Below, piece by piece: positions 28,131-64,000 of a stretch of DNA of 64,000 bases (position 1 is the stretch's first letter; each line of letters opens with the position of its first letter). Made by a program: the position numbers and the translations under genes. The DNA is from Helianthus annuus (lineage: Eukaryota; Streptophyta; Magnoliopsida; Asterales; Asteraceae), in contig NC_035449.2 in assembly GCF_002127325.2 (NCBI RefSeq), forward strand, positions 80,762,693 through 80,826,692, in the 5' to 3' direction. The notes below the pieces were generated by a model. That model saw only the letters and a program-made list of their open reading frames with translations. It did not search any database and was not told the origin of the DNA.

Positions 28131-28581
28131 ATGGCTGGCTCTGACAAAGCAAACAGTCATCCTGTGGAAGGAAACAATAATAAACACAGCGGTTGCACAA
28201 GCTGTGGATAATATGTTTTAGGAGCCGAGTAATGTTCGGTCCAAAACTCATACGAAGTCCCTATCACATTCGCATACACTAAAGAAGGATGAGTCTCAAC
28301 ACTCATCTAATCAGAAAAGTGAACCAAAGAGGCAGTTTGTCCTCGATCAAACTCCCAGGTACAACAAGGGTTGTACCTATAAATATTTCGTCTCCTGTAA
28401 ACTGAGAGATTTAACGAGAGAAAAGGAGCAATCGACTGTATGAAATGGTTGGATGAAATGGAAACTGTGATTGACATTAGTGGGTGTGCTTAGGAAGACA
28501 TCTTCAAGTTTGTATCTCAATCTTTCAATGGTGATGCCCTAACATGGTGGAAAGCCTTGGTGCAGTCCACTGGAAAGGTTC
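28131..28581 (+). pseudogene. gag: Element D gag, N-terminal fragment
   Basis: ATG 28131 opens MAGSDKANSHPVEG, then frame shifts occur. The Gypsy gag core is clear from about 28430: WLDEMETVIDISGCA, a TAG at 28491-28493, then FVSQSFNGDALTWWKALVQ. The WW pair and spacing match the retrotransposon gag domain of C ([10 protein letters not shown]) and A (ALDWWTAERN). Element A's LTR begins at 28582 and cuts the gene; the left flank GGTTC should recur at the far end of that insertion. Confidence 0.75.
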
Positions 28582-28985
28582 TGTAACAACCCGCACATTC
28601 GTGCGTTTTTACTACTCGTTACACTCGTTACGCCTAGCACCAGAGATTCGAATCATAATGTAACTATATCGCATACATCGCTATATCGCAATATTTTTCG
28701 CATATTATCTCATATTTTATCGCTATCACATCACATTGTGCTTGCTGACAACCACGAAGATGTCGAGTGAGGACCAATCCTAACCTCCTTGATAGCCGTG
28801 ATGTGTCGCAGTGCAACTCATTACTCAAAACACACATTAACGTTCACGATGACATTGAGAGAGGACCTATTCTACCCTCCTCGATGACCGTGAAGCATCG
28901 TAAAGAAACGCATATTCGAAATGAAACCTAGTTATTGTATCGCAACTTTGAAATATGGATATGTATATACGACCCAACGTGGCTA

Positions 28986-28988
<3 letters not shown>

Positions 28989-29023
<35 letters not shown>
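28989..29023. repeat. TA microsatellite in A's 5' LTR
   Basis: About 17 TA units here but only about 5 at the same place in the second LTR (near 37768). This accounts for most of the length difference between the two LTRs. Confidence 0.9.
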
Positions 29024-29027
<4 letters not shown>

Positions 29028-29107
29028 ATGTGGATGAGAATGTGTAACCAAAACTATCGCAGCGCTTAACGAATGAAACAAAACATCGAAACGCAATTCA
29101 CCGGAGA

Positions 29108-30456
29108 CCACTGATCGAATGACTGGTCGATCGGATAGCCAACCGATCGGACAGCCATCCGATCCATGGCACTCCCTTCCCCTTTTCTCCTCCTCACCTA
29201 TAAATAACCCTTGTCACATCACTTGAACAGTGATGTGACAGCTCTCACTCGACCAGCACGCTTTGGGGTCATTTTCTCTCGATTTCTCGCAATTCTTGTA
29301 AGTTTCTACCCTAAATCTTGTACTTCTACGATCAACACGCACTCCTTCATCTTTTTCACCATCAAATCTCACTTTTTCACCGTTAAACCCTCGGATTTGA
29401 GCCGTTCCAAGGTGATGTCATCATGGAGTTCTTAGGAACAATGAAGTGTGACCTCATCTCATCAAGAACAGTCCAGATCTGATAGAATCCACGATGTATA
29501 AACACTAATCTCACCTAAATCTAAGTTTTCTAAGCTTTCTTCAAACTTTCCTAACTTATCACTCGAAACCGGTAGCAACAGAGATGACCGGCCTGTCGTG
29601 TTAAACACGAATAACCACGAATAACCTATAGCGAAGTGTCAGTTTGAGAACTGGTTCCTATCGACGAGATGACCGGCCTGTCGTGTTAAACACGAATAAC
29701 CACCAAGAACAGTTAACTGATCGGACGTGGTGATTCCCATCTGACCCAGTGACTCAGACCTGGTGGAGTTCCATTGTTTAGCTCATAGTCATACGTCTCG
29801 ATCAAATCGCAAAAACTTAACGAAATAGGCAAGATGTAAAACGATAAGATTGCGGGACGGGTTACCGTCCGATCGGATTGCCGTCCGATCGGACTGCCAC
29901 CCGACCGACCTGTAATCCGTTCGGGTTGCACTTGGGGTCAAGATTTAAACAAATTGTTAAACATTCAAGGATCTGAACAACGAACAGACTGCCGTCCAAT
30001 CGGATTGCTATCGGATTGAACGACCATCCGATCGGCTGACTCTTGGATCCTCAACACTGAAACGTTTTATAAATCTTCATCGCACATCAGTTCCAACGGA
30101 GTATCACCTGATCGGACTCCCACCCGATCGAGTAACCAGTCTGCTGTGAACATATCATCAACCAAAGTATCTTGCCAATCGGATCACCGTCCGATCGAAC
30201 AACCACCCGATCGAGTTGCCACCCGATCAACCAGCCGTTCGATCGACCGACCTGAAAGGTAGAGATACTACTCTGTTTTCAAAATGTTACAACGAAAACT
30301 TCAAAAGGCAAACCACCATACACAAACACATCTTTCCCAACGAGGTAGCAATCCAATCGAATGGTCACCCGATCGGATGTCCATCCTATCGGATAGTCAC
30401 CCGATCGACCAGCCACCTGATCGGATTGCCATTCGATCGGAGTAATGTCCGATCCA
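29108..30456. repeat. CGATCGG palindrome array in A's 5' LTR
   Basis: Dozens of variants of (C)CGATCGG(A), often as CCGATCGGATTGCC or ACCCGATCG, are scattered over about 1.3 kb in clusters near 29120-29165, 29870-30050 and 30100-30450. The second LTR has the matching array at about 40793-42150. Confidence 0.85.
29199..29240 (+). promoter_or_regulatory. TATA box and 11-bp hairpin in A's LTR
   Basis: CTATAAATAA (29199-29208) is followed by the perfect inverted repeat TGTCACATCAC/GTGATGTGACA (29212-29222 and 29230-29240) with a 7-base loop. The hairpin would span or adjoin the transcription start. In the second LTR the TATA box is at 40901-40910 and one arm has a single change. Confidence 0.65.
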
Positions 30457-31222
30457 CTGACACGCTGCTCCGTTTCACGCACTATTCACCGCTTACGCTA
30501 TCAATCTGAAATCAGGCTAATCTCAGACGCGCTCCCTTCAATCCAACCAAGTTGTGGTTGCTGCTTGCTGAGCACCGACTGTGAGTATACTTGAACCCTT
30601 TTTGCTTTTGCGCTTTTGGGTGTAACATATGTTTCTATCAAATCAAATCACATCAAATGCTTAAACTATTTATCACTTGCGAATGACCAATGTGCATAGT
30701 TATACGTGATGCTAATTACATATGTGCTAGGACTTATACTCGCAACGTCCCACCATGACTAGTATAGTACTATTACGCCCGACGGGGTCTAGTTTAGCAT
30801 CGGGATCGAAGCTCGAGGACTTAGCTGGTAGTATCAGTTTTGTGAGTATATATGTCGTGTATTACGTTTATCTATGTGGAAATTCGCAGCTTTTATCTAT
30901 CACACTATTACATATCTGACCTGTATACTCGCCAATACTTTTGTATTGACACTATTTTAATGTACGTTGCAGGTTTTGTCGCAGTCTACATCGAATCAAG
31001 CTAGGAAGTCTAGAAACTCGCCTAAAATGTAGGTTGTCGGATTTGTATTGTTCGAGAGGACAAGAAATCTGTGATAACTTATGTGATTATACTGATTGTT
31101 AGTATGGGATAACAAATGTAATAAATACTATCGCAATATAGTTGTTATGGATTCTCTTGAGCAATCTGATTCGCCTGGTGCCGCGCCCCGATGATTCCGC
31201 CATCGGTTGGGGTGTGACAGAT

Positions 31223-31235
31223 TGGTATCAGAGCC
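31223..31235 (+). other. Primer binding site of element A
   Basis: TGGTATCAGAGCC four bases after the LTR end; initiator tRNA-Met type. Copies of the same site at 35568-35580 and 42920-42932 mark duplicated leader segments. Confidence 0.92.
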
Positions 31236-32414: not shown

Positions 32415-33536
32415 ATGCCTTCCAACAACTCTACCTCGAGACGAGCAGCTAGGAGAAGAGCCAAACGAAGCACCGATAAGAGGATTACCTCGCTTGTGGC
32501 CAAGGAAGTGGCCAAAGTCTTTCCTCAAATTGTCGCTTAAGTGCACTCTCTCAGCCACTCTCGAACCACAAAAGACGTCAAGACGGAAGCGCCGCAATCT
32601 GCTTTTCTCTACAAACACTTCAAAGCCTGTGATCTGATGGAATTCACGGGTGAAGGAGATGTGACCCAACTACTCCAGTGGTTCGATTCTATCGATGTTA
32701 CCCTTCGTCAAAGTGGGTGTCCCGATAGTTTTCATACTACTTGCGCAACCGGAGTATTTCAATCGCGAGCACTCGACTGGTGGACCGCCGAACGTAACAA
32801 ACGTGGAATCTCCGCAGCCTACTCTCTCTCTTGGGATGAGCTAAAGGAGCTCATGAAGAAAGAGTACTGCCCTCCCCACGAAGTCCAGAAGCTAGAAGAC
32901 GAAGTTTGGAAAATCAAGCAAGTCGAAGGTGAGAATGCTGGCTACACCGCAAGGTTTAAACAGCTTAGCATAATCTGCCCAAGTCAAGACAGCACTTCAG
33001 AAAAAGCCATTCCGAAATATATTCGCGGCTTGCCTGAGTGTGTGGGTGATTTTGTCAAAGCTGCAAGACCTGCTACCATTGAAGAAACCTACCGCTTAGC
33101 CGCAGAAATCAATGACAAACGAGTCTTGGACGGATTCTTCTCCAAGAATCCTGTCAAACAAGCTCATCAAGCAATCATCATCAATTCTTCTGATGATTCT
33201 TCTAGCAAATTTACCGACGAATCTTTTGAAGACTCCTCCAACGATGTCTATAGCGAATCATCAGACGAATCCACCGACGACACCGCATCATCTCAGGAAG
33301 CTCAGCCCAGCCGTAAACGAAAGACCATGAGCCCAGACTCTTCAACAACCGGACTGTCGCAACCAGAACCTCTCCGAGCAGCCCCAGTTCAATTGAAATG
33401 CACCTACAACGGAACTCATCCCCTGTGTTTCACGTGTACGTATCATCACCCGCCAGAAGCTAACTGTCGTTATTGCGCAAATTGCAACTGGTATGGTCAT
33501 CTTACGCAGCACTGCCGCACGGGACCGCAACCTTGA
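32415..33536 (+). pseudogene. gag: Element A gag
   Basis: The nucleocapsid-type protein of element A. The frame starts at ATG 32415 (MPSNNSTSRRAARRRAKR), has TAA at 32538-32540, then is open to TGA 33534-33536. The retrotransposon gag core covers about 32635-33120, with ALDWWTAERN and the ELMKKEYCPPHE motif. An Asp/Ser-rich acidic stretch follows (about 33180-33300), then one CCHC knuckle (CANCNWYGHLTQHC, about 33478-33520). Nothing resembling protease or RT follows. Without the early stop the protein would be about 373 residues. Confidence 0.85.
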
Positions 33537-33877
33537 GGAATTTCGGCAACAATCGCAGTCCCTCAGAAGTACTCCACAACATCGTTATTTTGCTTTTAAT
33601 GTTGTTGTAATAATACGACTCATCGCCGTCAATTTCTTGTATGTGTGGAAACTTATTCTATCTCTCGACGCATGTGGATTCTATTTCTCTCTTATACCCG
33701 CACACAATCTATATGCTAGCACTACGTATTATATAATGTATTTTACCCCCGCTATGCGTTCTTGAGATAAGGTACGATAAACGTGCAAGAATCAAATTAA
33801 TCACGGGTGCACACGGGATTACTTTGGTTAGTGCACGGAGATCGTAGTGAGTTTCAATGATGCCTTTACATTCAAGG

Positions 33878-33937
33878 CATGGTTAAGCGTGGTGGATACG
33901 CCGCTGGTACTTCCTATATATAAGCGTCTTGACCATG
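33878..33937 (+). other. Conserved-core hairpin, copy 1
   Basis: Arms CATGGTTAAGCG and CGTCTTGACCATG pair with one G-U type pair and a bulge. The loop carries GGTGGATACGCC and TACTTCCTATATATAAG, shared with the other four copies. Confidence 0.7.
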
Positions 33938-34189
33938 TCTGACAAAGTGTGACACCTAGTCACGGAACAGAGGCGTATGGTTGAAACATGATGGTGTTTC
34001 GCCATGCTAACCGAAGTTTTGTGAAGAAAGTGCCATATGGAGTTGGAACGTAGACCTATTGTACTATTGTGGTTATTTTCGACACACTATACTACATCAC
34101 AAGGCGTAACAATCTCAATCGCAACTTAAGCGTGTGATCAAAAGACTTTTCGTAAGTCAACACACTCGTAATCGCATTATCGCTAGAAT

Positions 34190-34610
34190 CTACCTCGCAA
34201 TCTCTATCGCTTATTATGGGTGTTTCGCAAACTCAATCGCTTATTGTGAGTTCGATCAATCACTTATTATGTGGCTCGAAATCGCAATCACAAATTATGT
34301 GAATCGCTACCGCTGGTTATCGCTTATTGTGTGAATCGCTATCACTTTTGGTGTGTCCTCGCTTAATCGCTTATGTGTGCGTACCGCTTGTTATGCATCG
34401 CTTATTACGTATGTATCGCTCTATCGCTTATCAGGGTATTGCTTGGTGTGGATCGCTTATCGTGGATCGCTAGACGAGTATCGTTAATCACTCGCCGCTT
34501 TTCGCTTTAGCGTACTTCACACCTACCTCATCGCTTCGATACTCTTATCGCCTATCGCTATCGCTTATCGCTATCGCTTATCGCTATCGTTATCTCTGTC
34601 GTCTGTGTTA
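34190..34610 (+). repeat. TATCGCT/ATCGCTTAT-rich repeat
   Basis: Irregular repetition of ATCGCTTAT and CTATCGCTTATCG, densest at 34545-34600, where it becomes a near-perfect 12-bp tandem. A shorter version lies at 36190-36235. Confidence 0.8.
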
Positions 34611-34649
34611 TGTTAGCACACATGACCTCGCTTCATGGAATGAAATTAT

Positions 34650-34710
34650 TATGGTTAAAACATGGTGGATACGCCGCTGGTACTTCCTATATATAAGTGT
34701 TTTAGCCATA
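34650..34710 (+). other. Conserved-core hairpin, copy 2
   Basis: Arms TATGGTTAAAACA (34650-34662) and TGTTTTAGCCATA (34698-34710) form 13 pairs, one of them G-U type, around the conserved core. Confidence 0.75.
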
Positions 34711-36289
34711 TCAGCAGTCTTTCGTGGAAAAAGGCCATGTAGGGTCTAATGTTAGTTAAAAATGTGGTGTTGTTTAATCTAATCAGATCAGGTCGCATGT
34801 TTCCATCGCTTACAACGCATCGCCTATCGCTTACCGCTTACGCTATCAATCTGAAATCAGGCTAATCTCAGACGCGCTCCCTTTAATTCAACCAAGTTGT
34901 GGTTGCTGCTTGCTGAGCACCGATTATGAGTATACTTGAACCCTTTTTGCTTTTGCGCTTTTGGGTGTAACATACGTTGCTATCAAATCAAATCACATCA
35001 AATGCTTAAACTATTTATCACTTACGAATGACCAATGTGCATAGTTATACGTGATGCTAATTACGTATGTGCTAGGACTTATACTCGCGACGTCCCACCA
35101 TGACTAGTATTGTACTATTGCGCCCGACGGGGTCTAGTTTAGCATCGGGATCGAAGCTCGAGGACTTAGCTGGTAGTATCAGTTTTGTGAGTATATATGT
35201 CGTGTATTACGTTTATCTATGTGGAAATTCACAGCTTTTGTCTATCACACTATTACATATCTGACCTGTATACTCACCAATACTTTTGTATTGACACTAT
35301 TTTAACGTATGTTGCAGGTTTTGTCGCAGTCTACATCGAATCAAGCTAGGAAGTCTAGAAACTTGCCTAAAATCCAGCCTGTCGGATTTGTATTGTTCGA
35401 GAGAACAAGAAATCTGTGATAACTTATGTGATTGTACTGATTGTTAGTATAGGATAACAAATGTAATAAATACTGTCGCAATATAGTTGTTATGGATTCT
35501 CTTGAGCAATCTGATTCGCCTAGTGCCGCGCCCCGATGATTCCGCCATCGGTTGGGGTGTGACAAATTGGTATCAGAGCCATAACTATAGGGAATTAGGA
35601 AAGACACGACCCAGTCCGGGTTTGTTGTCTTAGAAATGACCTAGTCTATAGTCTAAGTACGAACGGGCCGACTCGTGCGAACTTAGAAGGAATTGCACGG
35701 GCCTACTTGATACTCCCGTTCGAATTCGCTAAAAACTACAACTTTGTGTGAACACCGCGTACTATAGCTTCACACGAAGAAGCCTTTCCTAAGGCTGAAA
35801 TACTACTTAGCCTTTCCTAAGGCTGACACAATGCAGACGTTTTCGAAAATACTCGCATAACGAAACCAAGTGATCCAGTCGAGACCAGGTGTGAAAACCA
35901 AGAACTCTCGATGAGATCGCTCACTCAGCGTATACTTCTAGCACGAGAACCTTTCATCGAGCTAGGAGTGACATCTACAACTCGACGAAAGTCTCCAATT
36001 CGAAATCTAGTGGAACTCACGAATTTATGTGTGCGTACCGTTTGTTATGCATCGCTTATTACGTATGTATCGCTCTATCGCTTATCAGGGTATCGCTTGG
36101 TGTGGATCGCTTATCGTGGATCGCTAGACGAGTATCGTTAATCACTCGCTGCTTTTCGCTTTAACGCACTTCACACCTTCCTCATCGCTTCGATACTCTT
36201 ATCGCCTATCGCTATCGCTTATCGCTATCGTTATCTGTGTCGTCTGTGTCATGTTAGCACACATGACCTCGCTTCACGGAACGAAATTC

Positions 36290-36352
36290 ATATGGTTAAA
36301 ACATGGTGGGTACGCCGCTGGTACTTCCTATATATAAGTGTTTTAGCCATAT
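36290..36352 (+). other. Conserved-core hairpin, copy 3
   Basis: Arms ATATGGTTAAAACA (36290-36303) and TGTTTTAGCCATAT (36339-36352). The core reads GGTGGGTACGCC, one change from copy 2. It lies in the second S block. Confidence 0.75.
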
Positions 36353-36711
36353 CAGCAGACTTTCGTGGAAAAAGGCCATGTGGGGTCTAATATTAGTTAA
36401 AATTGTGGTGTTGTTTTATCTAATCAAATTAAGTCGCATGTTTCCATCGCTTACAACGCATCGCCTATCGCTTACCGCATATTGCTTTGCGCTTATCGTC
36501 GTCGTCTTTGCTTGTTATGTTGTGTTATGCTATCGAATTTTTGTGTACACTTACCCCACTCGCTTGTATCGCAAAACTGAGTTCGAAAACGGCTTCATCA
36601 CTCAGTTCGCCTTTCAAGACTTGATCCAACCCTTTCTCGCTTGGACCGAGTCATCGCAAATCTGCCTGTACTATGTCGACACGTATGACACTGCTTCACG
36701 AGACGGCAACC

Positions 36712-36774
36712 ATATGGCTAAAGCATGGTGGATACGCCGCTGGTACTTCCTATATATATGTGTTTTAACCATAT
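36712..36774 (+). other. Conserved-core hairpin, copy 4
   Basis: Arms ATATGGCTAAAGCA (36712-36725) and TGTTTTAACCATAT (36761-36774) pair with one mismatch and one G-U type pair. It lies outside the duplicated block, so it is an independent copy. Confidence 0.7.
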
Positions 36775-37350
36775 TGTCGAACTTTCATGGAAAAGTGCCA
36801 TGCGGGGCCGACCTTAAAATTTAAAATTATAGTATTATTAAAAGGCCTTGTTTACAACCAATTTTAAACTGATCTTCTTACGAATCTTTTCTAGCATTTA
36901 ATCAAAACCTTCGTACAAAACGAGATTATCTTATTACGTTGGAGTGACAATCGACTCAAGTCGCTGCCGCGTGACGATAAAATTTCGTAAAACGAGTTTT
37001 AATCACTTTAAAATCTTTTAGTAACCTAACCCAAAACCTTACTCATAGCGCTGGCATGAACATTGAAACAGTTTAACGCCGCACCGTGAGAAGATTTTCA
37101 CAAACAAGTTTTTCCTAATTAAGTCATCTTTTCGAAAATTTAAAACGCTCTGGGATCGCATTCTTGTGTGTGTTATCGCCTTTGATTATACAAATCGCTT
37201 TAACTTGTCGCTCTCGCTTAGCCTTCGCAATGCTCTCGCACATTGGATTCTCAATAGATCGCTCACCATCTCTTCGTTTCATCGTTTACTCGCTCGCACC
37301 AACTCTCGCGACCCTTCTTGTAGATTAATTTCAGGACGAAATTTCCTAAA

Positions 37351-37361
37351 GCAGGGGAGAC
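37351..37361 (+). other. Polypurine tract of element A
   Basis: GCAGGGGAGAC directly precedes the TG of the 3' LTR. The nearby sequence TTTCAGGACGAAATTTCC resembles that before the LTR of element C (TTCGGGACGAAATTTCC). Confidence 0.8.
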
Positions 37362-39727
37362 TGTAACAACCTGCACATTCGTGCGTTGTTACTACTCGTT
37401 ACACTCGTTATGCCTAGCATCAGAGATTCGAATCATAATGTAACTATATCACATACATCGCTATATCGCAATATTTTTTGCATATTATCGCATATTTTAT
37501 CGCTATCACATCACATTGTGCTTGCTGACAACTACGAAGATGTCGAGTGAGGACCAATCCTACCCTCCTTGATAGCCGTGATGTGTCGCAGTGCAACTCA
37601 TTACTCAAAACACACATTAACGTTCACGATGACATTGAGAGAGGACCTATTCTACCCTCCTTGATGACCGTGAAGCATCGCAAAGAAACGCATATTCGAA
37701 ACAAAACCCGGTTATTGTATCACAACTTTGAAAGATGGATATATACGACCCAACGTGGCTAATTATAATATATATATGAAAATGTGGATGAGAATGTGTA
37801 ACCAAAACTATCGCAGTGTGACACCTGTGTCACTTCAACCATCAAACAAATGCCAAACCAATGAAATATTGTGTTTCATACTTGGGATTTGTATAAATAT
37901 GTGCATCGTTTGCACATATCAATTCTTGTTCGATTTCAAGCTTTAAATCGCTTTCTGGAAGGTGATACGCGCACAGATAACCAGTTTAATGCAATGAACA
38001 CTCCGGAATAGTGAAATAGGCTTAACATACCTTAAATAACCTCCACATAACTTAGAAATAAGTTTTGGATGGTTTGGTGTGTTGAAATCAAGTTTGTTCG
38101 ATCGCAAGGACTAATTGTGTCAAACTACGAAACTATACCGATTTGTATACTAACGAACATTCTGGAACATGGACATACCCTAAATATCCTTTACATATCT
38201 TAGAAATAGGCTTTGAGGGGTTCGGTATGCTAAAATGAACTTATTTGATCAATAGAGACTAAAAGCGTCAAAAGTGCATAAGTTTGTATTTTCGCACATA
38301 TCTTACGTCCTGAATATATCCGGACATCCAAAAATTTATGTAATCATTAAAACATTTTATTTTAGTGATTGGCATGATAAAATTCCATTTTTCGCATAAT
38401 TTGGATCGTTTTTGCGTTCATTACGATTTCCGTTGTAATTAACCGAACAACGCAACCGTACGACCAAACGAACCGACATCCGAGATGTTTTTGAGCATAT
38501 TTTAAGTTCCCTGAGCTACTTGGATCAAGATTTGCTTGCGGGGACCCTTTGTAAGTATTCCTTCGTTCTTTTCTTTCGTTTTTTAGCTTAATAGTGAAAT
38601 TGCGTTTGACTTTCTGCATTGACCAGTTTATGGTCAACGCGAAGTTTGTTTGAACTTCGTAACGTGAGCATAATCACGATGGTTATAGTCCCTAGTGACT
38701 ATACCTACTGATTACCACGTTATCTAGGTTAGTGACGAGTCGTAGTTTCGGCCAAAATGCGTATTCTCGCGTATTTTGTAACCAAACTACTTTAAGGTAT
38801 CAAAACCGTTTGTTTTGATACCGAACCTGTTTTCTAACTTACCTAAACATGTTTTAGCATGTTTAGCTCGTCACTTTTAGATTAGTGCTTATTTAGAGTC
38901 GTAAGTCAAGCGGTCTAAACAACCGCTTAGGCTTTCGAACTAGACCCGTTTGGTTGATCATTAGGATCCGACCAAACATGTTTAGTGACCATAGTTGTAT
39001 AGGGAATAACCCTCCGAGGTTATACCTTATGGTAACTTCGTTTAAGTAGTTGTATGATAGGTAGTTTATATGCCTTAGGAAAATTACCAAAATACCCTTT
39101 TTATGCATAATTTATGTTTAAGCATATGTAACCCAAACTTTTATCACTTAACTGATTATGCAACATAATTAAACATGCTTAGGCATATAACACTTGTCAT
39201 AGGACTAGTTAGGAGGTCCGAACACGTTTTACGTGAACGACGCATTAAAGTAGCGCAAGCTACCTAAACGGGTCGTAATGGGTCGTAAGCACTTAGGTTA
39301 GGTTTCCTTTTAGTATGTAGGCCTTGTTAAACCATATCATATGAGTTCCCACACTCATTTGGTTACGAGACCTCATCCTATCTGATCTTCCGATTTAGGT
39401 CCGGTTTATTTATGTAGTTACCTATATTAGGTGCCGTTTATTCCGTGCTCCCTCTAGCTTGCTTGGTAGTTGTTCAAGACTTCTAAGCACTCTCAAGTGA
39501 GTACATAGTCCCCTCTTTTACTGTTTTCAAACTGTTTTGGGGTGAAGCATGTGTATCTATTTGTTATGTTCATGATTTCAAAAGTATAATTGATTATACA
39601 TATTAGTACTTATCTTTTGATAAACTGGATGATTATTTATGGTTTAAACTCTAATTTTTCAAAGATTATAAAAATTAATTGTTGGATAGTACTTATTTTA
39701 TGTTCACCAGACCGGTTGGTAGTATGA

Positions 39728-39739
39728 TATAGCGCTATA
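39728..39739. other. 12-bp palindrome TATAGCGCTATA in solo LTR E
   Basis: Followed by GGATTTGACACCCCATTCCTG. The sense strand of LTR C has its palindrome followed by TTAGGTTTGGCACCCTCACC, so the context is shared as well as the palindrome. Confidence 0.65.
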
Positions 39740-40158
39740 GGATTTGACACCCCATTCCTGTTGTCATGGAATGTCTGAAACCAATTTATTTTTCTCCATC
39801 CAAATAGGGATTGCCTTTGTGGTATTCCTATAGTCTCAAAGGTGTATTTTGATGCACTAGGTCTGAATGAATTCTTAAATCACATTATTTTTGTATATTT
39901 AGTTATACTCCCAAAAGTATAGTCTGATATGCTCTCATATGTGATATTGTACAAAACCAACATATATTTTCTTAATCATTAAAACATAGTTTAATATGTC
40001 ATTTTCAATCCAAAACATAGTTTAATATGTTATTTATAAATCCAAAGTATACTTTTAATGTACTACTGAAAATTATTATTTTTAACAACTAAAGTATATT
40101 TAATATACTATTTGTTTAACAATTAGGTTTTGGTTAGTGTTTAGATAACGGGACGAGT

Positions 40159-40227
40159 GTAATGTGATGAAAATATGGTAGATATGCCGCTGGTACTTCT
40201 TATATATAAGTGTTTTCATCACATTAC
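40159..40227 (+). other. Conserved-core hairpin, copy 5 (in solo LTR E)
   Basis: Arms GTAATGTGATGAAAATA (40159-40175) and TGTTTTCATCACATTAC (40211-40227) form 17 pairs with one G-U type pair. The outer arms share no sequence with copies 1-4, yet the core (GGTAGATATGCC, GCTGGTACTTC, TATATATAAG) is kept. Confidence 0.75.
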
Positions 40228-42916
40228 ATACCGTGGCGTTATTTAGTACACTTGGGTAAACGATTTTGAAACTGAAATATATTTTAATATATTACTTATT
40301 CGACGTTCTTAAAACCAAAGTATATTTTTGCATATACTATAAACCTTTTTATCAAAATATTTTTTTTTCAAACAATATATTTTATACAAACTCATTTTAC
40401 TTAATTATTTAATTATCTATGTATTATTATTCTATATCATCTGATTTCTTATAAATTTTAGTATGATTTATAAAAGAAAACCTTTTTCAAGGATCATGAC
40501 TACTTTTCTTAAACATTTTTCCTTAAACTTATAAGTCATGAATCATAAATCAATAAAACCTATGTATCTCACTGGCATTTTTATGCTGACGTACCTATTT
40601 TTATCTGATTTGTAATAGAACAAAGATTTCAATGATTCAATAAAATAAAATTATTTTATCCATGGTTGTGAAACAATGATTCTGTTACAACACTCCCCGA
40701 CGTTTCCACCACATCTTGTTGTTTTACGTGGTCGGGGTGTGACACGCAACGCTTAATGAACGAAACAAAACATCGAAACGCAATTCACCGGAGACCATTG
40801 ATCGAATGACTGGTCGATCGGACAGCCAACCGATTGGACAGCCAACCGATCGGACAACCATCCGATCCATGGCACTCCCTTCCCCTTTTCTCCTCCTCAC
40901 CTATAAATAGCCCTTGTCACATCACTTGAACAGCGATGTGACAGCTCTCACTCGACCAGCACGCTTTGGGGTCATTTTCTCTCGATTTCTCGCAATTCTT
41001 GTAAGTTTCTACCCTAAATCTTGTACTTCTACGATCAACACGCACTCCTTCATCTTTTTCACCATCAAATTTCACTTTTTCACCATTAAACCCTCGGATT
41101 TGAGTCGTTCCGAGGTGATGTCATCATGGAGTTCTTAGGAACACTGAAGTGTGACCTCATCTCATCAAGAACAGTCTAGATCTGATAGAATCCACGGTGT
41201 ATAAACACTAATCTCACCTAAATCTAAGACAAATCTAAGTTTTCTAAGCTTTCTTCAAACTTTCCTAACTTATCACTCGAAACCGGTAGCAACAGAGCTC
41301 GTACAGACCTTCTACTTTTCCTATAGCGAAGTGTCGGTTTGAGAACTGGTTCCTATCGACGAGATGACCGGCCTGTCGTGTTAAACACGAATAACCACCA
41401 AGAACAGTTAACTGATCGGACGGGGTGATTCCCATCTGACCCGGTGACTCAGACCTGGTGGAGTTCCATTGTTTAGTTCGTAGTCATAACGTCTCGATCA
41501 AATCGCAAAAACTTAACGAAATAGCCAAGATGAAAAACGATAAGATTGCGGGACGGGTTACCGTCCAATCGGATTGCCGTCCGATCGGACTGCCACCCGA
41601 TCTACCTGTAATCCGATCAGGTTGCACTTGGGGTCAAGACTTAAACAAATTTTCAAAGATTCAAGGATCTGAACAACGAACGGACTGCCGTCCGATCGGA
41701 TTGCTATCCGATCAAACGACCATCCGATCGGCTGACTCTTGGATCCTCAACACTGAAACGTTTTATAAATCTTCATCGCACATCAGTTCCAACGGAGTGT
41801 CACCCGATCGGACTGCCACCCGATCGAGTAACCAGTCTGCTGTGAACATATCATCAACCAAAGTATCTTGCCAATCGGATCACCATCCGATCGAACACCC
41901 ACCCGACCGAGTTGCCACCCGATCGACCGGCCGTTCGATCGACCGACCTGAAAAGTAGAGATACTACTCTGTTTTTCAAAATGCCACAACGAAAACTTCA
42001 AAAGGCAAACCACCATACACAAACACATCTTTCCCAACGAGGTAGCAATCCAATCGAATGGTCACCCGATCAGATGACCATCCGATCGGATAGTCACCCA
42101 ATCGACCAGCCACCCGATCGGATTGCCATCCGATCGGAGTAATGTCCGATCCACTGACACACTGCTCCGTTTCACGCACTATTCACCGCTTACGCTATCA
42201 ATCTGAAATCAGGCTAATCTCAGACGCGCTCCCTTCAATCCAACCAAGTCGTGGTTTCTGCTTGCTGAGCACCGACTGTGAGTATACTTGAACCCTGTTT
42301 GCTTTTGCGCTTTTGGGTGTAACATACGTTGCTATCAAATCAAATCACATCAAATGCTTAAACTATTTATCACTTGCGAATGACCAATGTGCATAGTTAT
42401 ACAAGATGCTAATTACCTATGTGCTAGGACTTATACTCTCGACGTCCCACCATGACTAGTATAGTACTATTGCGCCCGACGGGGTCTAGTTTAGCAATCG
42501 CGATCGAAGCTCGAGGACTTAGCTGGTAGTATCAGTTTTGTGAGTATATATGTCGTGTATTACGTTTATGTATGTGGAAATTCGCAGCTTTTATCTATCA
42601 CACTATTACATATCAAACCTGTATACTCGCCAATACTTTTGTATTAACACTATTTTAACGTATGTTGCAGGTTTTGTCGCAGCCTACATCGAATCAAGCT
42701 AGGAAGTCTAGAAACTCGCCTAAAATCTAGGTTGTCGGATTTTATTGTTCGAGAGGACAAGAAATCTGTGATAACTTATGTGATTGTACTGATTGTTAGT
42801 ATGGGATAACAAATGTAATAAATATTGTCGCAATATAGTTGTTATGGATTCTCTTGAGCAATCTAATTCGCCTAGTGCCGCGCCCCGATGATTCTGCCAT
42901 CGGTTGGGGTGTGACA

Positions 42917-43456: not shown

Positions 43457-45495
43457 AAGCTAAACCTTGTGGGATCTGCAAGAAGAAAGGGCACAAGACT
43501 GTGGAGTGCCGAAACATCAAGGATGCGACCTGCTACGATTGCAACGAAAAGGGGCACATCAAGACTAATTGCCCTAAAAATGCTATGAAGCCTGATGAGG
43601 CAAAGAAAACCCATGCAAGGGTTTTTTAGATGAACGCAAGGGTGGCAGTGAACGACGATAACGTTATAACAGGTACCTTCCTCATTAATGATATTTATGC
43701 TAGAGTTTTATTTGATTCAGGTGCTGATAAGTCTTTTGTAGACCATAAGTTTAGTAAGTTACTGAATCTGCCTATTAAAACTCTAGACATAAAATATGAG
43801 GTAGAATTCACAGACGGTACCTTTGAAACTGCTTCAACTCGTCTTGATGGATGCCTATCCATTAAGAATCATTCTATCCCGCTATCCCTCTTGCCAATGA
43901 AATTGGCTGGGTTTGATGTAGGTTTAGGCATGGATTGGTTATCACATAACCAAGCCCAAATTGCTTGCGATAAGAAGCTAGTTAACATCAAAACCCCTTC
44001 TGGTGAATCCGTCACTATTCATGGAGATACACAATATGGTTTGCCCAACAATGTGACTATTCTCAAGGTATCGAAGTGTCTAAAGAGCGGATGTGTCATC
44101 TACATGGCACAAGTGACTATTGATGAACCAAAGCCCAAGATTGAAGATATTCCAATTATTTCCGAGTATATGTCTTTCCTGATGAATTACCTGGATTACC
44201 TCCTAAGAGGCAAGTTGAGTTCAGGATATACATTCTGCCAGGATCTGTACCAATTGCACGAGCTCCTTATCGTCTAGCGCCTACTGAAATGAAAGAGCTC
44301 AGTACTCAATTGGATGACTTACTGGAAAAAGGTTTCATACAACCCAGCTCTTCGCCTTGGGGAGCTCCTATATTGTTTGTCAAGAAGGATGGATCAATGC
44401 GGTTATGCATTGATTATCGTGAATTAAATAAGGTAACGATCAAGAATCGTTATCCTTTACCCAGGATCGACGACTTATTCGACCAACTCCAAGGGGCGAG
44501 CTTCTTCTCAAAGATTGATTTGAGATCAGGGTATCATCAACTCAAGGTTAGAACTGAAGATGTACCTAAGATAGCGTTCAGAACAAGGTATGGACATTAT
44601 GAGTTTTTAGTGATGCCTTTTGGGCTCACTAATGCACCTGCAGCATTCATGGACCTCATGAATCGAGTCTGCAAGCCATACTTGGATAAGTTTGTCATTG
44701 TCTTTATAGATGACATACTTATTTATTCTCGTAATCAAGTTGATCACGAGAAACACCTTCGATGTATCTTAAGATTGCTACGAAAAGAGAAGATGTATGC
44801 TAAATTCTCTAAGTGTGAGTTCTGGCTTCGCGAAGTCCAGTTCCTTGGACATGTTGTGAGTGAGCGTGGTATCCAAGTAGATCCCTCTAAAATAGAAGCT
44901 ATCATGAACTGGGAGGCACCAAAGACACCTATGGAGATTCGCAACTTTCTGGGATTAACCGGTTATAATAGGAGATTCATTGAGAACTTCTCAAGGATAG
45001 CTGCACCATTGACTTCTCTGACTCGCAAGAATGTAAAGTTTGATTGGGGTCCAAAACAACAAGAGTCTTTTGAGATTCTTAAACAGAAATTGAGCAATAC
45101 TCCGGTGTTGACATTGCCCGAAGGAATTGAACAGTTTGTCGTATATTGTGATGCTTCACACACCGGTATGGGTTGTGTACTTATGCAAAGAGGCAAAGTG
45201 ATTGTCTATGCATCACGACAACTAAAGGTGCACGAAAAGAATTACACCACCCACGATTTGGAGTTGGGTGCCGTTGTCTTCGCACTTAAGTTATGGAGAC
45301 ACTATTTATATGGAACTAAATGTGTGATCTATCCGGATTACAAAAGACTCCAACACCTATACAATCAAAAGGATCTCAATATGAGATAGCTCCGCTGGAT
45401 GGAGACTCTAAATGACTACAATTGTGAAATTCGCTACCATCCTGGCAAAGTGAATATAGTCGCTGATGCTCTAAGCCGAAAGGAAAGAGTCAAAC
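43457..45495 (+). pseudogene. pol: A' pol fragment: zinc knuckles, protease, RT, RNase H
   Basis: Two CCHC knuckles (CGICKKKGHKTVEC and CYDCNEKGHIKTNC, about 43470-43575) precede TAG at 43627-43629. Protease has an intact DSGAD (about 43718). A frameshift near 44170 precedes RT, which has [25 protein letters not shown] (here split by nothing) and catalytic FIDDILIYS (about 44702). RNase H has VVYCDAS (about 45137) but YTDHKSL of C reads YPDYKRL, followed by TAG at 45387-45389. It ends at ADALSRKE where element C is inserted. Most of gag is missing upstream. It is closest in style to Tekay-type chromoviruses. Confidence 0.88.
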
Positions 45496-47987
45496 TGTCA
45501 CACCCCCAAAATACCACTTAGGGAGTGTCCCTGATAGGCGTGTGACGTACTGACAATGAGCCACTAATTACATTGAACCCATATTAGATCTCGAAATAAA
45601 GTTCTCAACCATTAATAAATACCATCATAAGTTCATACTAAAACCAATACGTTCCGCGGAAGCAAAAGAAAACCAAAGTTAACTGTTTAAAACTAAAGTA
45701 TAGTATCAAGAATTCGGTCACATCAATCTCTCCAATCGACCCATGAATCACTCCGGCTTCTCCAGACAGCAAGTATCCAAATCCATGAAACCTAACAACC
45801 TGCGAGCATGCAACAAGTGTATCAGACAAAGCTGGCGAGTTCACAGTTTATGAAAACGTTTGTTACCAAGTGTTTAAAGCAGTTCATTAACATAAGCAAG
45901 TAATATTGATAATATCTCGATACTGAACAAGACGGCTCCTGATGTATGTGTTGCCCTTTCCCCAGTGCTCCTATCAAAGCACTGGGCCCGACTGGGTCAT
46001 TAGTTCACACCCGCCCTCTCTCAGGAACGGGGTGAGGGTGCCAAACCTAAGTAGCGCTACCAACTAATACCCGTTACCTCCTCGGTAACAATGAATGGGA
46101 CTTAAAAATGATAGAATGAGAATATTATCCAATATATACCCGTTTTTACCCAAAAGACTTATCCCTCCTCGGGATACCCACTGACTGTCCCAACCACCGG
46201 GACGCATGCTCAAAGTAGTGAACTCACCTTAGGTTGCTCGGTAAGACTAATGCACGTATTCCCAAGTTGATCAATTAGCTCCTAATGTGGTTACCACTAT
46301 CCGTTAGTATCTCATTTTCCCAAAACACGCATGAAAAATAACAACTTGTAACAATTACATGTAATCACTAAATAAGCATTTGGTTTTCATATATTCCACA
46401 TAGTACATGCACGTATCACCTAAACACTTCATGATACCACACAAGTCAATCAAACATGCTCTACCACTCGGAGTTTCATTCGCGGCCCAAGATTTCAGCA
46501 ATCCGGTCCATTTGGTGATCCATAAACCCAACCCTGGACCACTACTTAACGTGTAACGGGAACCGACTGCTGGCCCACAAGGCCGGCCTGGCTACTACAG
46601 TAACCTGTACCCAACCATGTTGTTCAACTGGGCCCAAACAGTCAACTAATCTATATGTATGCGTGTGCCTAGTGAGTATAATTAAATAAACTCATTCCAT
46701 AATTTCTAACAATTCATTAATAAGCAATAACCCGTACAATCTAGGTGTAACATGTTAAGGTATTTAATCCAAACAAAAGTCCAATTCATGTGCACAATAT
46801 TTATACCTGTGGTCCGGGGCTCAATTCAACATGTATTCTAAGGAACAATCGGAACATGCAATCATAGTAACACCCTTACAGTTTAACATGCATAATCCAC
46901 AACCATATTCATATTAGAAATAAAAACAACCAATCGAACATCCATCCAGGCAAACCATAATTCATATTAACCCTGATGCCTATAGATCACACAAACCGAA
47001 TCCAGATTTTCTAGCATTAAAACCTGCATCATAACAGGTTTATCAGGTACGGTTCAGCCAGCCTATCTTCATCATTCGGAAATTACGGGGTCGGTTTAAA
47101 TGAATAACAATCCATCTCCGATCATACCGACGCTACCGATTATCATAATCCCAAACAACAATTGCTTATTCGCATCACATTTACATTAAGCACATCACTG
47201 TTATGTCGATTTCCTATTATCATTTTATTAATTATTTCGACAATCAAATCTATTCATTTCATACACTATGATTCATATATAGCACACAATGAGATGGTTA
47301 ACAGGAATTCCTAATCATAATTCAACATGCAGTAACATACTCAGGTTTCTCACGGTTACACACGGCAAGATCACGAAGTCAAAGATTTGCATGAAGATAA
47401 TTTTTACTAACCAAGAGAGGAGTATTTTCCGATTGAAGCTTCTGCCACCGCTAGCCTTTGAAACGTGTAGGGTTTGCAAGGTATTGGGATATTCTATGAA
47501 GTGCTACGTAACTGATAGGGTTTGAGTATATGTTGCCTACCGAGTCACGTAATCTTCGGTGTGTGTAAATGACCTATTGTAACCGCCCCCCCCATCTATG
47601 CAATCATTTATCAAGTTTTACCCAGCCCACTAATGTTTCAATATGTGTTCGTGTGAATGATGAATGTGTGACAATTGCTCCCCTAGTCGGCCCATGTATG
47701 AGTAACAGGGCCCAAAGTAACAACCGACCCTAACAATGAGAGTGGACAGCCCATGATTACTTATATTGTACTTGTGTGAGTTTGCCTAAGATAATATGTA
47801 CAAATGAATGTTACTCAATGTGACTCAAGTTATTCGCACCCCGCACGCACCCAGTTGTCAGTCACGTTTAAAGTTAACACACAACATATAACATTTTAAA
47901 ATCAAGTACTGCGTAGAGAGGGAAAACAATGAGAGTTTTAGAATCGCTAACCAAACGACACTAACCTGAAATGTTCGAGTTGTCACA
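45496..47987 (-). repeat. 3' LTR of element C
   Basis: 2492 bp; sense strand opens TGTGACAACTCG and closes GGGGGTGTGACA. It holds palindrome GTAGCGCTAC (46051-46060) and hairpin CCCAGTGCT/AGCACTGGG (45961-45986) with a loop containing CTATCA. Confidence 0.92.
45961..45986 (-). other. 9-bp hairpin with CTATCA loop in LTR C
   Basis: Perfect arms CCCAGTGCT/AGCACTGGG enclose CCTATCAA. The 5' LTR has the identical hairpin near 53852. LTR B has different arms around the same loop core. Confidence 0.6.
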
Positions 47988-53370: not shown

Positions 53371-53383
53371 GGCTCTGATACCA
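53371..53383 (-). other. Primer binding site of element C
   Basis: The minus strand reads TGGTATCAGAGCC, three bases from the LTR end at 53387. It sets the element's orientation. Confidence 0.93.
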
Positions 53384-53386
53384 AAC

Positions 53387-54198
53387 TGTCACACCCCCAA
53401 AATACCACTTAGGGAGTGTCCCTGATAGGCGTGTGACGTACTGACAATGAGCCACTAATTACATTGAACCCATATTAGATCTCGAAATAAAGTTCTCAAC
53501 CATTAATAAATACCATCATAAGTTCATACTAAAACCAATACGTTCAGCGGAAGCAAAAGAAAACCAAAGTTAACTGTTTAAAACTAAAGTATAGTATCAA
53601 GAATTCGGTCACATCAATCTCTCCAATCGACCCATGAATCACTCCGGCTTCTCCAGACAGCAAGTATCCAAATCCATGAAACCTAATGACCTGCGAGCAT
53701 GCAACAAGTGTATCAGACAAAGCTGGCGAGTTCACAGTTTATGAAAACGTTTGTTACCAAGTGTTTAAAGCAGTTCATTAACATAAGCAAGTAATATTGA
53801 TAATATCTCGATACTGAACAAGACGGCTCCTGATGTATGTTTTGCCCTTTCCCCAGTGCTCCTATCAAAGCACTGGGCCCGACTGGGTCATTAGTTCACA
53901 CCCGCCCTCTCTCAGGAACGGGGTGAGGGTGCCAAACCTAAGTATCGCTACCAACTAATACCCGTTACCTCCTCGGTAACAATGAATGGGACTTAAAAAT
54001 GATAGAATGAGAATATTATCCAATATATACCCGTTTTTACCCAAAAGACTTATCCCTCCTTGGGATACCCACTGACTATCCCAACCACCGGGACGCATGC
54101 TCAAAGTAGTGAACTCACCTTAGGTTGCTCGGTAAGACTAATGCATGTATTCTCAAGTTGATCAATTAGCTCCTAATGTGGTTACCACTATTCGTTAG
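53387..54198 (-). repeat. 5' LTR of element C, truncated
   Basis: 812 bp colinear with 45496-46307 (about ten differences by eye, including loss of the GTAGCGCTAC palindrome near 53945). Similarity ends exactly where the Athila LTR starts. Confidence 0.93.
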
Positions 54199-62700: not shown

Positions 62701-64000
62701 AACAAAGTGGTCTTCTTCGTTGGTTGTATCGGGTGGTTCAGCTTCATCTTCAATTAGGGGGTCATTGTTGCCAAAAGGATATTTCATTGAACGCTCAAGA
62801 TCTATGCTCCTTTTGAATGCCCCTAATTGAAGAGGTAGATTGTTGAATTTCCGGTTTTTCAAAGCTTTATGAGTTTGTACAAAAGGTTTTCCCAAGACTA
62901 AGGGGGCGTCATCTAGGATGACGAAGTCGGTTGGGATTACCATTTGATTTGTTTGAACCAAAACATCTTCAACTACACCGATTGATTTCATTACTTTCCG
63001 ATCGGATAGAAAAATGGGTATTTGAAGTGGAGTAAAATCACTAACACTTAATTTTTCAAAAATGTAGTTAGGCAGTATGTTAACACAAAGATCCTTATCG
63101 ATGGTGATATTACTAATAAATGAATTTTGAAAGAAACATGGAACCGGTGTAATGTTAATTTCAAAAGGATCTTCTTTTATTAGCGAGGTTTGATCATTAG
63201 TTAACTTAACACTTACTAAGTCTTTGATTTTAGCACTAGTGTTTAACTCTTTTAAAAACTTAGCATGAGGGGTTATTAAACAATGATTTTCGAAAGTAGG
63301 TGACAAGAGAATAATTTCCTCAAAACTAGTCTCTTCTTGAATTTTAACATTATCGGACTCACCTTTTTCGTTGTTTAACTCATGTGTCGGTTTTTCACTT
63401 TCTTGTTCTTCCATTCTTACACTTTCAACTACCTCTACGTTATTATCAATTTTTAATTCTTCTCTTGGGCGGGATTCCTCTTCCCTTGCGCGAGATTCTT
63501 TTATATAACGTTCGATAGTTTTAAGTTTTTCCAATATCCTATTAGTTACTTCGGTGAGAGAAAAAGAATTTGGATCCTCAAAGCTTGAATCCGGTTGTTC
63601 GATCCTTGGTTCCTCATAATACTCATATGAAGTAGATGGTTCACACCATTGTTCTTCATTGTAAGTATATGATGGATAAGGGTCGAAACTTTGTTCTTCA
63701 TAGTACTCATATGAGGTGGGTTGTTCACGCCATGGTTCCTCATAATAAGAGTATGAAGGTGGTGGCTCATACCTTGAATCTTCAAAGTATGAGTATGAAG
63801 GCTCATACCTTGGTTCATCAAAATATGAGTATGAGGGAGGAGGTTCATACCTTTGGTCTTCATAGGATGTGTATGAAGTTGATGGCTCGTACCTGGGCTC
63901 CTCATAATGGTTGTATGAATTGGATGGTTGATATGAAGTATTATATTGAACCGAGCGTGTGTTACGACAATTAGTGCAATAATTACCCCTATAATCATCC
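59716..64000 (-). CDS. gag-pol: Athila gag-pol polyprotein, N-terminus outside window
   Basis: One frame is open from 63999 to the stop at 59716, about 1427 visible residues. The first 150 residues are Tyr/Glu/Pro-rich repeats. A degenerate protease region ([13 protein letters not shown]) follows. RT has [21 protein letters not shown] (near 62068) and catalytic VFMDDF (near 61875). RNase H has MCDAS (near 61430), TEKELLAV and YTDHAA. Integrase has zinc ligands ending CDACQRSG (near 60675), Asp in LDFMGPF (near 60590), Asp in SDRG (near 60415) and Glu in GQAE (near 60313). All catalytic motifs of RT and integrase look intact; no chromodomain. Confidence 0.92.
63560..63940 (-). repeat. Tyr/Glu/Pro-rich peptide repeats in Athila gag
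   Basis: Repeats of about 15-23 residues built on [14 protein letters not shown] and variants ([20 protein letters not shown]), at least seven units. DNA units also repeat (GAGTATGAAG, CATACCTTGG). CTNCRN just before them is a lone CxxC. Confidence 0.8.

Follow-up and report, generated by a model that had tools for sequence, protein, structure and literature searches.

A hairpin with a nearly constant tip and freely changing arms occurs five times in a 64,000-nucleotide stretch of sunflower (Helianthus annuus) DNA, contig C17 positions 80762693-80826692 (hereafter the window), and is far more frequent in the sunflower genome than chance would give. Our preferred explanation, to which we assign a probability of roughly 45%, is that the hairpin serves as a position-flexible, cis-acting RNA handle of Ty3/gypsy long terminal repeat (LTR) retrotransposons, bound by a shared protein that would most likely be a host export adaptor. 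Throughout, tip denotes the ~35-base core of the hairpin, with bases numbered from 1, and arms denotes the main stem that flanks it. The only genome examined is the 3.01-Gb H. annuus assembly of 334 contigs; motif counts cover all of it and are lower bounds, and the loci read individually (L numbers) all lie within the first 77 Mb of contig C1 rather than being spread over the genome.

An abundant hairpin with a conserved tip

The 39-base core of the hairpin is found exactly in 13,544 genome copies and within 3 mismatches in 34,261, with 0 matches to the reversed control in each case. The 11-mer GCTGGTACTTC matches 29,486 times, versus 1,052 times for the reversed pattern. Among the first 30 loci, some of which overlap, 27 contain the hairpin and the other 3 the 11-mer alone; the loci with the 11-mer but without the hairpin that were dropped are L008, L017 and L028. 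As the hairpin set, 118 unique 138-mers were kept, 3 further ones being truncated at locus ends. A blastn comparison of the 3-kb loci L012 and L013 returns a single match, 57 bp long, at the tip, and comparisons across loci indicate that the ~35-base tip is kept nearly unchanged across families whose surroundings cannot be aligned.

Four of the window copies lie in an LTR retrotransposon, element A, and the fifth lies in a solo LTR, E, of a second Ty3/gypsy family. The original prediction had placed a conserved core with complementary arms at 33878-33937, 34650-34710, 36290-36352, 36712-36774 and 40159-40227, and both parts are present in all five. A covariance model, trained on a set that includes these copies, recovers the same five and no others on the + strand of the window (expectation value, E, 1.8e-32 to 8.6e-21), and its 3 weak matches on the - strand (E 0.017 to 0.15) correspond to antisense readings of copies from this same set. 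All five belong to one repeat family (D13). A diverged relative of the hairpin (E 7.5e-07) lies at L100:973-1116, in an internal region between two loci with intact copies; its tip is strongly different, so an older variant of the hairpin may exist. Elsewhere, a 22-mer gave 0 matches in a collection of viral contigs. One viral-contig match to a 17-mer and 2 genome-contig matches to a 20-mer have neither tip nor arms around them and were taken as chance.

Searches of the window and five loci against Rfam 15 gave 0 matches at the gathering score, hammerhead included, and nine chance-level matches below threshold (E 0.73-7.7); the earlier statement that the hairpin matches no known ribozyme is supported, and no other Rfam family matches either. 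A literature search found no description of this hairpin, and a search with its core letters matched only one 13-base string, in two papers on craniofacial and zebrafish work. The words hairpin, palindrom and stem-loop are absent from PMC7730604 and PMC11656987.

Compensatory changes in the main stem

Several lines of evidence indicate that the arms of the main stem change while their pairing stays. First, across the 118 hairpins, 90.9% of 16 main-stem positions pair in register, compared with 30-49% when the arms are slid by 1-3 positions. The 86 unique arm pairs give, over the same 16 positions, 1,125 Watson-Crick, 113 G.U, 28 A.C and 110 other cells.

Second, each arm fits its own partner better than a partner taken from another hairpin. 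Among 13 representatives that differ at ≥5 positions of the 5′ arm, the number of paired positions, out of 16, is 13.1 for own arms and 10.2 for swapped arms, and the observed score is reached in 0 of 100,000 permutations. With stricter sets of 9, 7 and 6 representatives, 23, 16 and 561 of 100,000 permutations, respectively, reach the observed score.

Third, alignment A1, which comprises 42 rows (44 representatives minus L051, L110, L137 and L138, plus 2 window copies), has two-sided changes in 15 of 17 main-stem pairs and in 18 of 27 pairs overall. Covariation over the whole structure is 0.363 in A1, compared with 0.187 after shuffling (observed value reached in 0 of 500) and at most 0.130 after sliding. 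The four excluded rows have rearranged 3′ sides, which were seen before the choice was made, and their exclusion favours pairing. With no rows excluded (46 rows), an ungapped count of the main stem gives 86.6% paired versus 73.0% shuffled (0 of 500), with two-sided changes in 16 of 17 main-stem pairs; on the matching count, the A1 rows give 88.2%.

Finally, the innermost main-stem pair is, genome-wide, A-T in 13,544, G-C in 440, G.T in 106 and A.C in 73 cases, an odds ratio of about 770, where the numbers count copies and not independent events. We tested for arms that are complementary no more often than chance and for a lack of independent stem changes, and found neither for the main stem.

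Probable selection on sense RNA

Under selection on DNA folding, G.T and A.C mismatches should be tolerated equally. The ratio of G.U to A.C is 113:28 in the real arms and 175:100 in swapped arms, so that base composition explains part of the G.U bias, but not all of it. Of the two strands, the sense strand has the more stable fold in 41 of the 44 representatives, with a mean difference of 10.8 kcal/mol. Folding z-scores have a mean of -3.7 and fall below -3 in 28 of the 44; they do not in the other 16, and are near 0 in, for example, L024, 2 of the 5 copies of L060 and 2 of the 3 copies of L006. The window copies in this set include copy 1 (z = -1.7) and copy 2 (z = -2.7), copies 3 and 5 having been left out.

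Together with the covariation of the arms, these sense-strand signals support the idea, put forward in the original prediction, of selection on a folded RNA common to different element families, pointing to the sense RNA rather than to a cruciform, the other form then considered. We see only a very slight chance that the sequence acts as a DNA hairpin, a cruciform or a small-RNA precursor instead of a functional RNA fold. Its long complementary arms would suit such a role, as would three weak Rfam microRNA matches (E 0.73, 1.1 and 4.9) that copy 5 gives at scores well short of the gathering threshold, but the G.U to A.C asymmetry and the greater stability of the sense strand weigh against it, as does the fact that the tip, and neither of the arms, is invariant.

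Structure of the tip

Within the tip, pair 4-24 is G-C or A-T and changes on both sides: copies with A4 carry T24 in 96 of the first 100 matches listed of 3,418, and in 19 of 20 among fetched copies, and G4 occurs with T24 in only 193 copies genome-wide. Beyond this pair, we infer a tip helix of 5-23, 6-22, 7-19, 8-18 and 9-17, with bases 20-21 bulged and a GCCGCUG loop, from a hardly varying sequence that reads RGAUAC/GUA(CU)UCY around that loop. RNAalifold picks 4-24, 5-23 and 6-22 and pairs the loop differently. Among the window copies, copy 5 has the A4-T24 variant of the tip, and copy 3 has A6 changed to G6, with pairing retained as G.U.

The original prediction read this region as a 4-bp inner stem in which a paired change from GGTG/CGCC to GGTA/TGCC preserves pairing. 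The change is literally present in solo LTR E; it is not, however, a pair that the family keeps. GGTA copies number 3,570 in all, and CGCC is kept in 98 of 100 among the first matches listed. We rejected the inner stem GGTG/CGCC, since 98 of the 100 first-listed A4 copies and 4 of the 5 A4 rows of A1 cannot form its pair 4-9. The third arm proposed from ACTT...AAGT overlaps the tip helix and found no support.

Placement in Ty3/gypsy elements

Diagnostic parts gathered over several elements identify the hosts as Ty3/gypsy LTR retrotransposons. Pfam domains include gag and RVP_2 in L060, RVT_1 and RT_RNaseH in L097 (the same element as L060), and RT_RNaseH, Integrase_H2C2 and SH3_Tf2-1 in L095; the gag piece of L009 has no Pfam match. 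When 15 neighbouring copy pairs were compared, 13 had near-identical flanks over at least 1.4 kb, and in 12 of these 13 a primer-binding site (PBS) was found and the flank match stops just before it, as two LTRs of one element would be expected to show. The remaining two pairs share ~500 bp at 76% (L053/L054) or the tip match alone (L012/L013). In the four LTRs with located ends, the length is 2.6-3.4 kb.

Hairpins occur at three kinds of site. In the 12 LTR pairs with a PBS, the tip lies 617-647 nt upstream of the PBS; in solo LTR E, the hairpin is ~0.53 kb before the 3′ end. In L060, five hairpins lie between the PBS (L060:660) and gag (about 2750). In element A and its relative L006, hairpins follow gag, and copy 1 of element A has an equivalent place in L006; L023 and L040 have one hairpin each, between matches to the element A post-gag region and to its polypurine tract/LTR start. 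The 5′ LTR of element A gave no covariance-model match and thus has no hairpin inside. These placements indicate that the position of the hairpin is flexible (LTR, PBS-gag leader or after gag), with 1-5 copies per element, and in elements whose context was read the hairpin is structured and outside open reading frames.

The box TATAAATA lies upstream in 3 of the 4 LTR-type elements examined, 0.6-1.65 kb before the tip, at +1064 (L009), +1084 (L026) and about +1079 (L015) from the LTR start; L015 and L026 form one cluster, so the three elements represent two families. Further TATAAATA boxes are at 37892 in solo LTR E and at +75 in L009. Upstream of the tip in L035, whose LTR start is unclear, no TATAAATA or other TATA-like box was found. 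In L004, an AATAAA follows the tip at a distance of 517 nt. The upstream box and downstream AATAAA together predict that the hairpin falls in the R region, at both ends of the RNA.

These positions argue against the promoter role that had been suggested for the core, in which TATATATAAG would serve the LTR as its TATA box, with the arms incidental. That TATATATAAG is conserved, TATA-like and near-fixed in place in many LTRs would fit such a role, as would the absence of another box in L035, but copies are also found downstream of the PBS, within the leader, and beyond gag, TATAAATA already stands 0.6-1.65 kb upstream in L009, L026 and L015, and the arms covary with a G.U bias. We therefore rejected a promoter as a general role and regard it as scarcely likely. 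Hardly better are the prospects of a new class of self-cleaving ribozyme. Covarying stems that carry a conserved core do recall a ribozyme, a pseudoknot might form between tip bases 1-3 (GGU) and loop bases 10-12 (GCC), and retrozymes reportedly show that LTR elements can carry ribozymes. Five self-cleaving copies between PBS and gag would, however, cut the mRNA, and neither hammerhead nor any other Rfam ribozyme matches.

A candidate docking site for a shared protein

A nearly fixed tip on free arms, in sense RNA, at varied sites outside gag, in 1-5 copies and in elements with divergent Gags looks like a docking site for one protein. In the mechanism that we propose, the hairpin would be transcribed in the sense direction and act as RNA in untranslated parts of the element transcript, where one shared trans-acting RNA-binding protein would read the tip. 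This partner would be a host factor, likely an mRNA-export adaptor of the TREX type, and the outcome would be nuclear export of unspliced element RNA. A host partner is suggested because the tip is nearly identical while the Gag proteins differ: identity over aligned pieces is 76% for A/L006, 67% for L009/L035, 51% for A/L060 (191 aa), 40% for L060/L009 (52 aa) and 33% for A/L009 (51 aa). We put export first, since the families must have the partner in common and since plant elements are mostly intronless, as stated in a 2025 review (PMC12786077).

A close second to export, although in itself rather unlikely, is a packaging or dimerisation signal, in which Gag (nucleocapsid) would recognise the tip and direct genomic RNA into particles, also for non-autonomous elements that have only gag. 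The five L060 copies lie in the classical place of a packaging signal, between PBS and gag; the families compared carry related Ty3-type Gags; and self-complementary GUAC and UAUAUAUA in the tip could form dimers. By contrast, a tip that is nearly identical at a Gag identity of 33-51% (A, L060 and L009) fits a host partner better, and the copies of element A lie 3′ of gag. We consider it improbable that the hairpin is instead a stability or translation element of untranslated RNA, such as a cap-independent enhancer or a decay shield. Its location outside gag frames where context was read, at both 5′ and 3′ positions, would suit this role, and the structured tip could offer a binding site for an initiation or decay factor, but by Rfam it resembles no described element.

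Several observations weigh against an export handle or against parts of the structure on which it is built. For covariation, a phylogeny-aware null (81 sequences, 9,180 column pairs) leaves one pair at E<0.05 (E 0.0009), followed at rank 2 by a pair outside the structure (E 0.6) and at rank 3 by tip pair 4-24 (E 0.9); this null is weak because many columns share family history. The outermost helix is 77% complementary in register, yet own arms are no better than swapped arms (16 representatives; 8,667 of 20,000 permutations equal or exceed the observed score; anchors present in 72 of 104 hairpins), and in A1 two-sided changes occur in 2 of its 4 inner pairs, with no other sign of covariation seen. 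For the tip, single-sequence folding by minimum free energy (MFE; RNAfold) mostly prefers the inner stem GGTG/CGCC, so that the tip helix rests on one covarying pair and on invariance, not on energy, and a single ancestral event may account for the 4-24 change. Only 111 copies that keep G4 and C24 differ at base 5, and C23 is kept in 95 of the 100 first listed, which leaves pair 5-23 without compensation; we infer that these copies look like decay after insertion. For the partner, sequence names none, so that the choice between export and packaging is a judgement. The Gags of the families compared are related, and a packaging signal bound by Gag would likewise be compatible with several copies at varied positions. 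Plants, moreover, use TREX and not NXF1, the receptor of the known mammalian transport elements, according to the review (PMC12786077).

A broader and more tentative possibility is that the hairpin would constitute one RNA 'passport' for many competing Ty3/gypsy families of one plant, the first transport (or packaging) element of plant retrotransposons, with a tip read by a host export adaptor and a place that can move between LTR, leader and 3′ region. If a single host protein reads the tip, tens of thousands of retrotransposon copies would depend on it in common. The hairpin is a defined and very abundant module, and its near-invariant tip is directly usable as a bait or for reporter deletion.

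Other features of the window and of the host elements

Element A (Table 1) has gag and no pol-sized frame between its LTRs, and a PBS that we take to be of the tRNA-Met type. The label of solo LTR given to E holds: its insertion interrupts the 3′ LTR of the element, and the empty site is visible in the 5′ LTR. The chimeric stretch in the post-gag region is flanked by a ~470-base duplication (34371-34840 / 36025-36481) and perhaps arose by template switching. From 42917 onward, directly after the 3′ LTR, a further PBS and leader-like sequence suggests recombination between elements.

Table 1. Hairpins and retrotransposon features in the window
Feature	Position	Strand	Basis or remark
5′ LTR of element A	28581-31219	+	aligned to 3′ LTR; TATAAATA at 29199 (TATA scan)
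Primer-binding site TGGTATCAGAGCC of element A	31223-31235	+	sequence
gag open frame of element A	32541-33533	+	Pfam Retrotrans_gag PF03732, Ty3_capsid PF19259
Element A internal region after gag	33534-37360	+	hairpins 1-4; ends in polypurine stretch before LTR start
Hairpin copy 1 (element A, 3′ of gag)	33866-33952	+	tip core 33891-33924; outermost pairs by MFE prediction only
Hairpin copy 2 (element A)	34620-34740	+	tip core 34664-34697; outermost pairs by MFE prediction only
Chimeric stretch (LTR end + PBS + leader) interrupting element A post-gag region	about 34833-36027		
Hairpin copy 3 (element A)	36251-36393	+	tip core 36305-36338; outermost pairs by MFE prediction only
Hairpin copy 4 (element A)	36675-36812	+	tip core 36727-36760; outermost pairs by MFE prediction only
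3′ LTR of element A	37361-42916	+	interrupted by solo LTR E
Solo LTR E	37817-40744	+	target duplication CGCAG/CGCAA (one mismatch)
Hairpin copy 5 (solo LTR E)	40136-40252	+	tip core 40177-40210; outermost pairs by MFE prediction only

Just before the LTR 3′ end, complementary CTCCCCGACG...GTGGTCGGGGTGTGACA at L035:2072-2125 and at window positions 40690-40744 form a possible second stem. The LTRs of L032, L034, L035 and relatives contain blocks of ~52-base tandem repeats 0.6-0.9 kb upstream of the tip, recognised as shifted self-matches; in some elements, one LTR seems to hold more of these repeats than the other. Elsewhere in the window, two 300-base repeats (45491-45790 / 53382-53681), 100% identical and 7.9 kb apart, are probably the LTRs of a young element, and an array of diverged, possibly coding 42-base repeats occupies 63593-63921.

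Comparison with known RNA elements

Retrozymes, said to be LTR elements with hammerhead ribozymes, likewise present a conserved RNA motif in plant LTRs; the elements described here differ in having no hammerhead match and LTRs of 2.6-3.4 kb. Retroviral packaging signals (Psi) are stem-loops near PBS and gag, often several of them, whereas our hairpin is also found in LTRs and after gag, with a tip nearly invariant over divergent Gags.

The constitutive transport element (CTE) of Mason-Pfizer monkey virus (MPMV) has conserved unpaired bases on helical arms and lies outside genes. The hairpin would resemble the CTE and the transport elements RTE and MTE in being structured RNA that acts in cis within LTR elements or retroviruses, its sequence relation to them having been compared via Rfam alone. 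The 2025 review (PMC12786077) lists the RTE of IAP and the MTE of musD as RNA transport elements and describes the known ones as acting via NXF1, while plants are said to use TREX. The hairpin differs further in that its tip is nearly constant over several families, with 34,261 copies within 3 mismatches. The same review (PMC12786077) states that direct export studies of plant LTR-retrotransposon RNA have not been done and that the presence of CAR-type export motifs in these elements is unclear. It also recounts that the structured 5′ leader of plant pararetroviruses, about 482-608 nt long, recruits TREX (PMC12786077). The hairpin differs from this leader in being a module of ~60-140 nt that is repeated and occurs at varied sites. 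By the same account, the leader likewise belongs to a plant reverse-transcribing element and is structured, untranslated RNA tied to export (PMC12786077), the role that we favour for the hairpin.

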